A DNA stretch of 64,000 nt from Bacteroidota bacterium (GTDB taxonomy: Bacteria; Bacteroidota; Bacteroidia; UBA7662; CANHCV01), in contig CANMVY010000005.1 of assembly GCA_947501265.1 (NCBI GenBank), positions 62,001 to 126,000 of the forward strand. The letters are read 5' to 3'. Shown one piece after another: positions 51,619 through 60,357 of the stretch. Every line of letters begins with the position of its first letter. Positions within the stretch are counted from its first letter, which is position 1. The position numbers and the translations under genes are program-made. Under the pieces are notes generated by a model. It did no database searches. It was not told the DNA's origin and was given only the letters and a program-made list of their open reading frames with translations.

Positions 51619-53019
51619 ATGCAAGACCGCCAACATACCATCGCTCAATCGTGCTCCATTTCTGGAAGTGGCCTACACACCGGAGTTTCTACCACATTAA
51701 CCTTTCATCCTGCCCCTGAAAATCACGGAATTGTATTTTGGAGAAGCGACCTCGGTCCAAATTCAAAAATCCCCGCTGACGCGGATTTAGTGGTTGATGT
51801 TTCCCGAGGAACAACCTTGGAACTGAATGGCACTCGAGTTCAAACGGTCGAACACGTGCTGGCAGCTTTGGTAGGTTTACAAATCGATAATGTGCTTTTG
51901 GAGATTAACGCGGTTGAAATGCCGATCATGGATGGAAGTTCTCTTCCCTTCGTTGAAATCCTTGAGAAAGCTGGAATTGCGACCCAAAATCAGTACCGCG
52001 AATATTTAGAGATTAAAGAAGACATTCGTTTCTACGATAAGATTAAGGATGTTGAAATGATGGTGATCCCCCACGATAATTATCGCATTACGGCCATGAT
52101 CGATTACAAATCGCCCGTTTTGGGAAGCCAGCATGCCGTATTGAATCACATCGAAAATTTCAAAACAGAGGTTGCCGCAAGTCGTACGTTCTGTTTTCTC
52201 CATGAATTGGAAATGTTGTTGGAAAACGGGTTGATCAAGGGCGGCGATTTGAACAACGCCATTGTGGTGGTGGATCGTGCAATTGGAGAGGAAGAATTGG
52301 CTCGTTTGGCTACACTATTCCAGAAAGAAACGGTGAGCGTTGCCAAAGAAGGAATTTTGAATAACGTTGAGCTGCGATTCATCAATGAACCGGCTCGACA
52401 TAAATTGTTGGATATGGTTGGAGATTTGGCGTTGGTTGGAATGCCCATCAAGGGACACATTCTCGCTTCCAAACCCGGACATGCGGCCAACGTTGAATTC
52501 GCGAAATTGTTGAAAAAGTACGCTAAAAAGCAAAAATCCTCCACAACCTACATTCAATACAGCCCCAATCAAAAACCAAAATTTGATATTTTGGAAATTT
52601 TGGAAACCTTACCGCATCGCTATCCATTCGTAATGGTGGATAAAATCATGGAAATGAGCGATACGCATGTGGTAGGAATTAAGAATGTGACCTTCAATGA
52701 AAACTACTTCATGGGGCATTTTCCTGCCAATCCGGTTATGCCGGGCGTGCTTCAAATCGAAGCCATGGCCCAAGTGGGCGGGATTTTATGTTTGCACGCC
52801 ATGGAAGGTAAGCCCAGCGATTATTGGACATACTTCCTGAAAATAGAAAACTGCAAATTCAAAGACAAAGTGGTTCCCGGCGATACGCTCACGTTGCGGC
52901 TCGAGCTAACCGCTCCGATTCGCCGAGGCATCTGCCAAATGAAGGGGGTTGCCATGGTGGGAGAACGAATCGTTTCTGAAGCAGAATTGATGGCCCAGCT
53001 TGTAAAAAAACAGCCATGA
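51619..53019 (+). CDS. lpxC-fabZ: Bifunctional LpxC deacetylase / FabZ dehydratase fusion
   Basis: A 466-residue two-enzyme fusion characteristic of Bacteroidota. The LpxC part (about 1-310) deacetylates UDP-3-O-acyl-GlcNAc: zinc His79 in QTVEHVLAAL and the HKLLDMVGDLALVG segment with the other ligands. The FabZ part (about 325-466) dehydrates 3-hydroxyacyl-ACP: LPHRYPFVMVDKI with catalytic His, and NYFMGHFPANPVMPGVLQIE. Fusion joins consumption of hydroxyacyl chains by lipid A to their removal by fatty-acid synthesis. Overlaps lpxA by 4 bases. Confidence 0.97.
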   Translation: MQDRQHTIAQSCSISGSGLHTGVSTTLTFHPAPENHGIVFWRSDLGPNSKIPADADLVVDVSRGTTLELNGTRVQTVEHVLAALVGLQIDNVLLEINAVEMPIMDGSSLPFVEILEKAGIATQNQYREYLEIKEDIRFYDKIKDVEMMVIPHDNYRITAMIDYKSPVLGSQHAVLNHIENFKTEVAASRTFCFLHELEMLLENGLIKGGDLNNAIVVVDRAIGEEELARLATLFQKETVSVAKEGILNNVELRFINEPARHKLLDMVGDLALVGMPIKGHILASKPGHAANVEFAKLLKKYAKKQKSSTTYIQYSPNQKPKFDILEILETLPHRYPFVMVDKIMEMSDTHVVGIKNVTFNENYFMGHFPANPVMPGVLQIEAMAQVGGILCLHAMEGKPSDYWTYFLKIENCKFKDKVVPGDTLTLRLELTAPIRRGICQMKGVAMVGERIVSEAELMAQLVKKQP

Positions 53020-56732: not shown

Positions 56733-57984
56733 GGCTTAATGCCCTCAATGCAGGAGCCTTCCAAGCAATCATTCCAACAATTATAATGGTCATGCTCCCT
56801 CCAAACAACAACGAGGGAACCAATCCCATGGACTGTGCCGCTAAACCCGATTCAAAGGCGCCGATTTCGTTGCTGCTGCCAATGAACATGCTGCTCACGG
56901 CGCTAACTCTTCCACGCATCTCATCAGGAGTATAAAGTTGGGTGATGGTATTTCGAATGACTACGCTGATCGAATCCAAAACACCGCTGAAGAACAAGAA
57001 GAAGAATGCTACCCAAAAATGGGTACTTAAGCCAAACCCAATCATGCAGATTCCAAATCCGAAAACTGCCCAAAGCAGGTTTTTTCCAGCATTTTTCATC
57101 GGTTTTCGGAAAGCCAGTATCATCGCCATTCCAGCGGAACCGATGGCCGGAGCGGCGCGCAACCAACCCAATTGAATGGCACCGGCCTTCAAAACTTCAT
57201 CGGCAAAAACGGGTAAAATAGCTACCGCTCCACCAAACAAAACCGCAAATAAATCCAAACTGAAAGCACTTAAAAGCACTTTGTGTTGGAAAACGTATTT
57301 CAGTCCAGACGTTAATCGATCCCAAATCTTTTCTTGTTGGATTTCCGATTTTACGTGGGGAATGGGAATTCTCGAAAAAGCTAAAAACCCAATAAACAAG
57401 AAGGCCAATACTACGCCATAGCACCATTCGAAAGCAAATTCTGAACGACTGCTGAGGAAACTGTAAAACAAGCCGCCTGCTGCGGGACCGGTAATCATTC
57501 CCATTTGCCAAATGGTACTGCTCCAACTTACCGCATTGCTCATCTTTTCTTTGGGGATTAAACTGCCCAAGGAAGCAAAAGAAGCCGCCGCCATAAAACT
57601 TCTTCCAAATCCTACTCCAAACAAGGCGGCGAAAATAAATGCTGAAAAGGAAAGATCCCTTCCCAACCAAAATCCAATCAGCAGACCTAAAACAGACAAT
57701 TGAATGAAAATCATGGCGCCCAATGCCACTTTTTTGCGAGCATATTTGTCAGCAATGTGGCCGGCATACAAAGCCATGCCGATGCTGGGAATGGCTTCAA
57801 CTAAACCGGCATAACCGAGTTGCATTTTGCTGTGGGTCATGGCCCAAATTTGCCATCCAGCAATCGTGGCCAACATTTGTAACCCAAAGGTAAAAAAGAA
57901 ACGATAGGCCACGAACCACCGAAAAGCCCCGATTTCCAGGGCCTCAAACGGCCGGTGTGGAGTATTTATTTTTTCGGAATCCAT
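56710..57984 (-). CDS. MFS transporter, drug-export type
   Basis: A 424-residue major facilitator with about 12 helices. The loop 2-3 signature is YAGHIADKYARKKV and the MFS_3/enterobactin-exporter-like signature includes FGRSFMAAASFASLGSLIP and TITQLYTPDEMRGRVSAVSS. This is the EntS/MFS_3 type, usually an exporter of small molecules. ATG at 57984 gives the usual short N-terminus; upstream reading would run through the adenosyltransferase. It overlaps that gene by 19 bases. Substrate unknown. Confidence 0.9.
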   Translation of the reverse strand: MDSEKINTPHRPFEALEIGAFRWFVAYRFFFTFGLQMLATIAGWQIWAMTHSKMQLGYAGLVEAIPSIGMALYAGHIADKYARKKVALGAMIFIQLSVLGLLIGFWLGRDLSFSAFIFAALFGVGFGRSFMAAASFASLGSLIPKEKMSNAVSWSSTIWQMGMITGPAAGGLFYSFLSSRSEFAFEWCYGVVLAFLFIGFLAFSRIPIPHVKSEIQQEKIWDRLTSGLKYVFQHKVLLSAFSLDLFAVLFGGAVAILPVFADEVLKAGAIQLGWLRAAPAIGSAGMAMILAFRKPMKNAGKNLLWAVFGFGICMIGFGLSTHFWVAFFFLFFSGVLDSISVVIRNTITQLYTPDEMRGRVSAVSSMFIGSSNEIGAFESGLAAQSMGLVPSLLFGGSMTIIIVGMIAWKAPALRALSLRDPQQE

Positions 57985-58511
57985 GGGGTTTCTTCCAATC
58001 CTTTTTGGTGGGTGAGGAAACGCGAATAAACGAACAAGTAATCGCTCAATCGATTGAGGAAGATTTGGAGGATGGGGGCCATGGGTTCGGCTTCGTTCAA
58101 GGCTACCAACAAGCGTTCGGCTCGGCGGCAAACGCAACGGGCAATGTGCGTATGTGCTTCCGCCGAATTGGAACCCGGCAAAATGAAATGACGCATGGGA
58201 GGAACCACTTCGTTCATCCGATCCATGGCATGTTCCAACCGCTCCACATCATCGTTTTCAATCGTTGGAAGTTGGAAATTTTTACCCGATTCCAATGCCA
58301 AATGACTTCCCATGGTGAAGAGACGATCCTGAATGAACAACAACAATGCTACCGATTCTTCCTCATCAGCTTCACTTCTCAATAAACCCATGTGGCTGTT
58401 CAACTCATCAACGGTTCCATAGGTTTCAATGCGCAAATCTGCTTTTGATACCCTACTTCCTCCTAACAAAGAAGTAGTCCCGGCATCTCCCGTTTTTGTG
58501 TAAATTTTCAT
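57966..58511 (-). CDS. Cob(I)alamin adenosyltransferase (PduO type)
   Basis: Transfers the adenosyl group of ATP to cobalamin, making coenzyme B12. It has 181 residues: ATP-binding KIYTKTGDAGTTSLLGG at the N-terminus, YGTVDELNSHMG, HFILPGSNSAEAHTHIARCV and CRRAERLLV, then LNRLSDYLFVYSR, the PduO signature. ATG at 58511 is fixed by the ATP motif. No cobalamin riboswitch is seen upstream. Divergent from grpE; overlaps the MFS gene. Confidence 0.95.
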   Translation of the reverse strand: MKIYTKTGDAGTTSLLGGSRVSKADLRIETYGTVDELNSHMGLLRSEADEEESVALLLFIQDRLFTMGSHLALESGKNFQLPTIENDDVERLEHAMDRMNEVVPPMRHFILPGSNSAEAHTHIARCVCRRAERLLVALNEAEPMAPILQIFLNRLSDYLFVYSRFLTHQKGLEETPWIPKK

Positions 58512-58557
58512 GCCCAAATTTCGAAAGAAATCCCCAATCTTTTTCCTCAAACTTAGG

Positions 58558-58570
58558 TGACATTTTGTCG
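58558..58570. promoter_or_regulatory. Inverted repeat upstream of the grpE sigma-54 promoter
   Basis: GACA (58559-58562) and TGTC (58566-58569) around TTT form a short palindrome ending 12 bases before the -24 element. Its position suggests an activator or repressor site for grpE-dnaJ. Confidence 0.35.
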
Positions 58571-58581
58571 GAATTTCGACC

Positions 58582-58598
58582 TTGGCAAATCCTTTGCA
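58582..58598 (+). promoter_or_regulatory. Sigma-54 type (-24/-12) promoter of grpE-dnaJ
   Basis: TTGGCAAATCCTTTGCA: GG at 58584-58585 and GC at 58596-58597 are exactly 10 bases apart, in the context TTGGCA and TTTGCA of the RpoN consensus. Predicted transcription start near 58609, 12 bases before the grpE ATG. Confidence 0.65.
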
Positions 58599-58620
58599 GT
58601 TTTTGGAAAAAAATTGGATT

Positions 58621-59190
58621 ATGAGCCAGTCAAACGAGCAAGAAAATCAACAACCCCAACCCGAAGAAAATATCGAAAATACCCTTCAAACCGAAGAAAA
58701 TACTACAAATACTCCGGATGAAAATCCAGAAGATGGAAAGGATGCATTGGCCGAACTTCAAACAAAGTTGGAAGAGGCCGAAAAGAAGGTTTTGTACTTG
58801 ATGGCCGATTTTCAGAATTTACGGCAGAAAGCGGCAAGAGAACGCATCGATCTTATTCAAACCGCATCGAAAGATTTGATCATTGATTTGCTTCCCGTTT
58901 TGGATAATTTTGAAATGGCTTTGGCCAGCATGGAAAAAGCTACCGATATTGAGGCTGTGAAAAAAGGAGTAGAGTTGATTCATCAGCAATACATTGGCAT
59001 TTTGAAATCAAAAGGATTAAAAGCCATTGACGCAAAAGGACAACCGTTCAATACGGATGAACACGAAGCCATTACTACTTTTCCAGCCCCATCGGAAGAA
59101 TTGAAAAATACCGTTTTTGATGAAATTTCGAAAGGGTACAAGTTAAACGATCAAATGATTCGCTACGCAAAAGTGGTGGTCGCCCAATAA
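58621..59190 (+). CDS. grpE: Nucleotide exchange factor GrpE
   Basis: Cochaperone that releases ADP from DnaK. It has 189 residues: an acidic, Gln/Asn-rich N-terminus (1-55), a long coiled coil (about 55-100, with LMADFQNLRQKAARER), and the C-terminal beta domain (HEAITTFPAPSEEL region, ending GYKLNDQMIRYAKVVVA). ATG at 58621 is preferred to the upstream in-frame start, which would lie within the promoter. dnaJ follows 3 bases later; dnaK is not in the window. Confidence 0.96.
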   Translation: MSQSNEQENQQPQPEENIENTLQTEENTTNTPDENPEDGKDALAELQTKLEEAEKKVLYLMADFQNLRQKAARERIDLIQTASKDLIIDLLPVLDNFEMALASMEKATDIEAVKKGVELIHQQYIGILKSKGLKAIDAKGQPFNTDEHEAITTFPAPSEELKNTVFDEISKGYKLNDQMIRYAKVVVAQ

Positions 59191-59193
59191 TCC

Positions 59194-60357
59194 ATGAGTA
59201 AACCCGATTTTTACGACGTTTTAGGCGTTTCAAAGTCGGCCACGGCCGAAGAAATCAAAAAAGCGTATCGCAAATTAGCGATTCAATACCACCCCGATAA
59301 AAATCCGGGTGACAAAGCTGCCGAAGATAAATTCAAAGAAGCAGCTGAAGCTTACGAGGTGTTAAGTGATGCCGATAAGCGAGCTAAATACGACCGTTTT
59401 GGCCATCAGGCCTTTGAAGGCGGCGGATTCGGCGGCGGCAGTGGCGGTTTTTCCATGGACGATATTTTCTCCAATTTTGGCGATGTCTTCGGTGATGCGT
59501 TCGGCGATTCAGGGTTTGGTTCTTTCTTTGGTGGCGGAGGTCAACGAAGAGGCGGTGCTCCCAAAGGAACGAACATCCGCATTAAAGTAAAAATGACCTT
59601 GGAAGAAATTTCCAAAGGCGTAGAGAAGAAGGTAAAAATTAAAAAATATGTGGCTTGTGCCACGTGCAGCGGTTCTGGAGCAAAGGATGGTACGTCTTAC
59701 TCTAGTTGCAAAACGTGCAATGGTACCGGAGCCGTTCGAAGAGTGCAAAATACTTTTTTAGGGCAAATTGCAACCCAAAGTACGTGTACTTCGTGCAACG
59801 GAGAAGGAAAAACGGTAACTGCAAAATGCGGAACCTGTTCCGGTGAAGGACGAGTTTACGAAGAAGAAACGATTTCCCTAAACATTCCCGCCGGTGTAGC
59901 AGATGGCATGCAGCTGAGCGTGGGAGGCCGCGGGAACGTGGGCCCTCGTGGAGGACGTGCCGGTGATTTGATCGTGGTCATTGAAGAAGAAAATCACGAA
60001 GAATTGAAGCGCGACGGACACGACCTGATTTACGATCTCACCATTACGTACAAAGATGCAGTTCTAGGGTCTTCCTTGGAAGTGCCAACCTTAGAGGGAA
60101 AAGTGAAAATAAAAATCGACGCAGGAACCCATGCTGGAAAAATTCTGCGATTGAAAGGCAAAGGACTTCCTGTTTTGAACGGATATGGACGCGGTGATCT
60201 ATTGATTTATACCAATATTTTTGTCCCATCCAAGGTGGGTGCAGAAGAAAAAGAAGTACTAGAAAAGATGGGTGGAATGCCCGGATTTTCCATGGAATCG
60301 GAAGGGAAACAAAAAGGATTTTTCGAACGAATGCGCGATTACTTCGGGAACTCTTAA
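59194..60357 (+). CDS. dnaJ: Molecular chaperone DnaJ
   Basis: Hsp40 partner of DnaK. It has 387 residues: J domain (5-70) with HPD in [15 protein letters not shown], a Gly/Phe-rich linker (75-120), four zinc-binding CxxCxGxG repeats ([32 protein letters not shown]), then the substrate-binding C-terminal domain. It ends 4 bases inside the convergent gpsA gene. Cotranscribed with grpE. Confidence 0.97.

Follow-up and report, generated by a model that had tools for sequence, protein, structure and literature searches.

The grpE–dnaJ gene pair of this member of the Bacteroidota is preceded by a sequence with the layout of a sigma-54 promoter, and upstream of it lies a palindrome that is conserved in related genomes at distances following the turn of the DNA helix. 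We consider it probable that the promoter is served by sigma-54 and that the palindrome is the enhancer of an activator lacking a receiver domain, which would act as a joint switch for the chaperone genes. The window referred to below is the whole 64,000-nucleotide stretch of DNA that was analysed; the features discussed are collected in Table 1.

Table 1. Features of the grpE–dnaJ locus (window coordinates), with two proteins encoded elsewhere in the genome.
Feature	Position	Strand	Basis
Palindrome TGACATTTTGTCG, proposed enhancer (upstream activating sequence)	58558..58570	+	core TGNCA-N3-TGNCA with 1 mismatch
-24 box TTGGCA of putative sigma-54 promoter	58582..58587	+	sequence; kept in relatives
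-12 box TTGCA of putative sigma-54 promoter	58594..58598	+	sequence; kept in relatives
Predicted transcription start	58609	+	general sigma-54 geometry, 12 bases after -12 C
grpE	58621..59190	+	PF01025, E 3.6e-42
dnaJ	59194..60357	+	PF00226, PF00684, PF01556; 3 bases after grpE
Cobalamin adenosyltransferase, divergent neighbour	57966..58511	-	PF01923, E 1.2e-58; outside proposed regulon
Candidate activator, 413 aa	G000:C2:136580-137821	-	sigma-54 AAA+ domain from residue 15, Fis-type HTH
Receiver-bearing PF00158 protein (L004)	G000:C2:189697-190194	-	GAFTGA loop replaced by GALPLIQ

The 17-mer TTGGCAAATCCTTTGCA occupies positions 58582-58598, between the cobalamin adenosyltransferase gene and grpE. 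Sigma-54 promoters are numbered by their -24 and -12 boxes; here GG (58584-58585) and GC (58596-58597) are separated by 10 bases, and the sequence fits YTGGCA-N6-TTGCW. The first-pass annotation had read from the DNA this GG-N10-GC spacing, a distance of 22 bases from the promoter to the grpE ATG at 58621 and a small palindrome upstream, and in all three respects it was accurate. The palindrome, at 58558-58570, ends 12 bases before TGGCA, placing its centre at about -45 if transcription starts at 58609. A single rpoN gene is present in the genome (PF04552, E 2.8e-54).

The promoter 17-mer is identical in all three genomes of the genus. From relatives in the same order and class we took the sequence preceding grpE, dnaK and groES, to a length of at most 300 bases, and scored it for TGGCA-N6-TTG, allowing at most one mismatch in TTG. 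The motif is found in 148 of 163 regions (grpE, 50/57; dnaK, 45/51; groES, 53/55), whereas dinucleotide shuffles give a mean of 10.75. Seven of the 57 grpE regions have no -24/-12 motif by this rule, which counts against our explanation. Of the 58 genomes in which grpE was matched, 57 are in the grpE set, G036 being omitted with its gene at a contig end, and the dnaK set covers 51 of 53 genomes, leaving out the fragments L117 and L118. The groES set covers 55 of 57 genomes (G038 and G039, with no locus, are omitted), and uses neither fragment L143 nor the second copies that four genomes have. G037 and G055 were omitted in part of the collection.

Motif counts within one genome show no enrichment, and for this reason we do not rely on them. 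The window contains 361 copies of GG-N10-GC where 381 are expected, and TTGGCA-N6-TTGCA with at most one mismatch occurs twice against 2.9 expected. Genome-wide, YTGGC-N7-TTGCW is found at 24 places and the same pattern read backwards at 41, while a looser pattern with TTKC gives 32 places against 38 for its control. The grpE site is the only one of the 24 places that does not lie inside an open reading frame of at least 130 aa. The absence of enrichment in window and genome is what a functionless chance match of GG-N10-GC in intergenic DNA would produce, but the motif is conserved at three chaperone genes across 58 genomes when compared with shuffles and with the reversed motif, and we give the chance reading next to no weight. 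An intergenic TGGCATTTCGCTTGCC (L092, G000:C10:62509-62524, plus strand) lies 20 bases before a gene that we take from its sequence to be pdxJ; it is perhaps another sigma-54 promoter.

Transcription of grpE from an ordinary Bacteroidota primary-sigma promoter, with the sigma-54-like sequence incidental, is very improbable. A second, weaker promoter may be present. Promoters of this class carry TTTG and TAnnTTTG boxes, and TTTG is indeed present within the palindrome, as is CCTTTG in the -12 region. Against this, TTG-N17..22-TAnnTTTG is found in 1/57 grpE, 0/51 dnaK and 1/55 groES regions (0.2 to 0.3 on average in shuffles), and its best match at the grpE of this genome has two mismatches. A promoter search of 58400-58700 returned no sigma-70-type promoter. 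Primary-sigma and sigma-70-type promoters at grpE were rejected on the basis of this consensus scan and this search. CIRCE was also tried and rejected at grpE: scanning with the consensus of the element at up to 4 mismatches in 18 positions gives one match in the 163 regions, upstream of groES of G058.

A palindrome is conserved upstream of the promoter. Scanning the 148 promoter-bearing regions over 120 bases ahead of the -24 box, we found 60 exact occurrences of TGNCA-N3-TGNCA, distributed over 59 regions, against 0.37 hits in shuffles and none for the reversed motif. With at most one mismatch, 126 of the 148 regions have it (shuffles, 7.8; reversed motif, 2), and the consensus comes close to CTGACA-N3-TGTCA. 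Among the 53 promoter-bearing groES regions, 17 lack a palindrome with this spacing even when one mismatch is allowed, which counts against our explanation. Taken as a whole, the pattern suggests an enhancer bound by a sigma-54 activator.

The distances between the palindrome and TGGCA cluster at 12-13, 33, 43, 54-55, 65, 75 and 86-87 bp. Analysis of 41 distinct combinations of genus, gene and distance, using exact cores, revealed a best period of 10.5 bp (R 0.88), with nR2 of 32 compared with at most 11.2 in 500 uniform sets; period and R are unchanged when grpE is removed (n=30). Most gaps at grpE are 12-13 bp, corresponding to a centre at about -45, and those at dnaK and groES range from 12 to about 106 bp. 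Sigma-54 activators bound to enhancers work through DNA looping, and their enhancers usually lie about 80-150 bp upstream; the grpE palindrome is closer than this, which also counts against our explanation.

The combination of palindrome and -24/-12 motif has a density of 3.25/kb in the chaperone upstream regions and of 0.010/kb in the activator loci, taken as a control on both strands. Within the window, both strands included, it occurs twice, and one of the two occurrences is the grpE site. The other, at 52923-52962 on the minus strand, consists of a palindrome with one mismatch and a weak -24/-12 motif 12 bp away, and is probably due to chance.

The first-pass annotation had named the same motif upstream of dnaK and groES as a check on its proposal, and a -24 box with a -12-like box stands before both genes in this genome, the -12 box of dnaK being weak. 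We searched this genome and two congeners for a -24 box with a palindrome 11-71 bp upstream, a pattern that can miss members, since it demands an almost exact palindrome and a gap of roughly 11 to 71 bp. It yields 9 matches here and 8 in each congener; a control pattern yields 13, 11 and 10, so the number of matches shows nothing by itself. Only two of the nine matches in this genome, those of dnaK and htpG, lie outside coding sequence, the rest being inside open reading frames, and each of these two is also present in both congeners.

The dnaK palindrome has a gap of 43. At htpG the gap is 12 (TGTCAATTTGTCA and CTGGCAAAAAACTTGTA) and the -24 box is accompanied by a -12-like box; HtpG is the best NCBIfam match for the first 200 residues of the product of this gene. 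The search misses grpE, where the palindrome ends in CG, and groES. The arrangement is thus common to grpE–dnaJ, dnaK and htpG, with gaps of 12, 43 and 12, respectively. The groES gene has a -24/-12 sequence (GTGGCATAATGCTTGAA), but a palindrome with this spacing was not found there even with one mismatch allowed, a further point against our explanation.

Sigma-54 promoters open only when an AAA+ activator acts on them. This genome encodes three PF00158 proteins in which the AAA+ domain is complete. The candidate that we favour (Table 1) has no receiver domain in the domain search and scores below the cut-off of all 25 NCBIfam models shown. Its gene is located in the order miaB, activator, lptE-like, a 272-aa gene, secG-like, groES, groEL, where miaB, lptE, secG and groEL are names that we assume from the sequences. 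Exactly one match at E < 1e-75 is found in 59 of 60 genomes. Of the 57 genomes with both the activator gene and groES, 34 have the two no more than 6 kb apart, and these are 34 of the 37 with both on one contig. Fifty of the 59 orthologs were submitted for reading of the sigma-54 contact loop and 49 were read (G021 is missing); a GAFTGA-type loop is present in all 49, the form in this genome being GSFTGA. The recognition helix ISERTLYRK is near invariant among the orthologs, and a conserved helix around ILYKLLFEMKRDITELK precedes the DNA-binding domain, where it is possibly a handle for control.

In three genomes of genus g5, the palindrome TGACATTTTGTCG is found 23-24 bp before ATGGCAAAT, at positions 5-56 of L155 (plus strand) and, on the minus strand, at the corresponding places in L158 and L164. 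These sites precede the activator operon, some 1.5 kb ahead of the activator gene itself, and self-control of the operon is possible.

Our best explanation takes the following form. RNA polymerase with sigma-54 would bind 58582-58598 and transcribe grpE–dnaJ from about 58609. The palindrome at 58558-58570 would be the enhancer to which the activator binds. In most relatives the palindrome and the -24 box share one face of the helix, the distance between them starting at 12 bp and growing by 10.5 bp per step. The activator would most likely be the 413-aa receiver-less protein in the gene row ending in groES–groEL, because it is single-copy and linked to groES, its GAFTGA-type loop is intact and its recognition helix hardly varies. 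With this protein as their common switch, grpE–dnaJ, dnaK, groESL and htpG would form a proteostasis regulon, responding to a signal that may be heat or misfolded protein. Since the protein is without a receiver, we speculate that a partner, perhaps a chaperone, could restrain it by way of the conserved helix before its DNA-binding domain.

A different assignment, which we regard as unlikely yet worth keeping in view, accepts the promoter as real and takes the palindrome to be the site of another protein, either a repressor or the NtrC-like activator near rpoN, with the receiver-less protein serving other genes. The NtrC-like protein (L002) bears a receiver and adjoins rpoN, and its GAFTGA-like loop, GSFTSA, makes it a second activator candidate, which counts against our explanation. 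The receiver-bearing protein L004 has probably ceased to act as a sigma-54 activator. The alternative assignment also draws on the position of about -45, which is unusually near for an enhancer, and on the helical phasing, which would suit other proteins that touch the polymerase as well. Set against the involvement of another protein are the groES linkage of the receiver-less protein in 34/57 genomes, its presence in 59/60 genomes and its near-invariant recognition helix, together with the genome G044, where it was the only activator candidate in a first look.

G044 is a 490-kb genome on one contig, and it has kept one rpoN. Two of its sites count against our explanation. Its dnaK keeps TTGGCACAAGTATTGAA and CTGCCATTTAGTCAG, but they are 47 bp apart and out of phase; at its grpE the palindrome is kept and the -24 box is absent.

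An rpoN match is lacking in eight of the 60 genomes, which also counts against our explanation. Six of these (G014, G015, G017, G019, G036 and G050) still carry sites upstream of at least one of the genes, probably because their assemblies are broken; G055 is also among the eight. In G058 we find neither an rpoN match nor sites at its grpE, dnaK or groES. The CIRCE element before its groES (L210) is near-perfect, with 1/18 mismatches, and a swap from sigma-54 to HrcA control may have taken place in this genome. G058 retains an ortholog of the activator despite having no rpoN match, which is awkward for our explanation.

Whether a receiver-less activator on helix-phased CTGACA-N3-TGTCAG, placed from about -45, is the chaperone master switch across the Bacteroidota class studied, in place of sigma-32 or HrcA, is a broader proposition for which we see the case as evenly balanced. 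If true, it would identify the switch behind the heat-shock response in a phylum that is prominent among gut and water bacteria, and sigma-54 would gain an enhancer layout that is closer and more strictly phased than in the usual picture. The need for the activator would also explain why rpoN is kept in tiny Bacteroidota symbiont genomes. In a symbiont genome paper, RpoN retention is called unusual and is tentatively tied to nitrogen (PMC3971599); chaperone control would offer an alternative reason. With a single-copy candidate gene, a defined predicted site and a spacing rule, the question is testable in cultivated Bacteroidota.

The promoter itself is ordinary for the phylum, and the palindrome with its candidate activator is the less known part. 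In Flavobacterium psychrophilum, according to the sections consulted, 5'-end mapping gave sigma-54-type (SM4) promoters at groESL, lon, dnaK, grpE–dnaJ, htpG, clpB and others, and the choice among three PF00158 proteins as activator was left open by the authors (PMC9723704). Because sigma-54 promoters of grpE, dnaK, groESL and htpG are published for that species, the grpE promoter described here is of a known kind, alike in sigma factor, genes, phylum and -24/-12 boxes; there the starts were mapped, whereas here the evidence is comparative, with a phased palindrome and a candidate activator in addition (PMC9723704). Together with the conservation and with the presence of rpoN and activators in the genome, these mapped promoters lend strong support to the sigma-54 promoter that had been claimed for grpE–dnaJ, and sigma-54 probably transcribes grpE here. 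The accompanying claim that such control of chaperones is unusual stands in comparison with Proteobacteria and Firmicutes, but not within the Bacteroidota: a 2025 survey of sigma-54 regulons reports a heat-shock cluster enriched for sigma-54 promoters in Bacteroidota and Planctomycetota, with GrpE, GroES, GroEL, DnaK, DnaJ and HSP90 among the targets (PMC12316311). The passages of the survey that were consulted name no activator, and the term 'UAS' is not found in its main text (PMC12316311).

The literature searched, which excludes most subscription journals, holds no description of the palindrome, of the spacing rule or of an assigned activator and enhancer. The candidate activator is reminiscent of PspF, the receiver-less activator of the phage-shock operon of Enterobacteria, in its AAA+ domain followed by an HTH, its lack of a receiver and its proposed connection with a stress regulon. 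It differs from PspF in its score (264.8 bits, below the NCBIfam cut-off of 443.55) and in having a conserved helix of its own in the C-terminal region, and the proposed enhancer is closer and phased, unlike that of the PspF system. With the HrcA/CIRCE and sigma-32 systems, the arrangement proposed here would share the co-ordinate control of dnaK, grpE and groESL.
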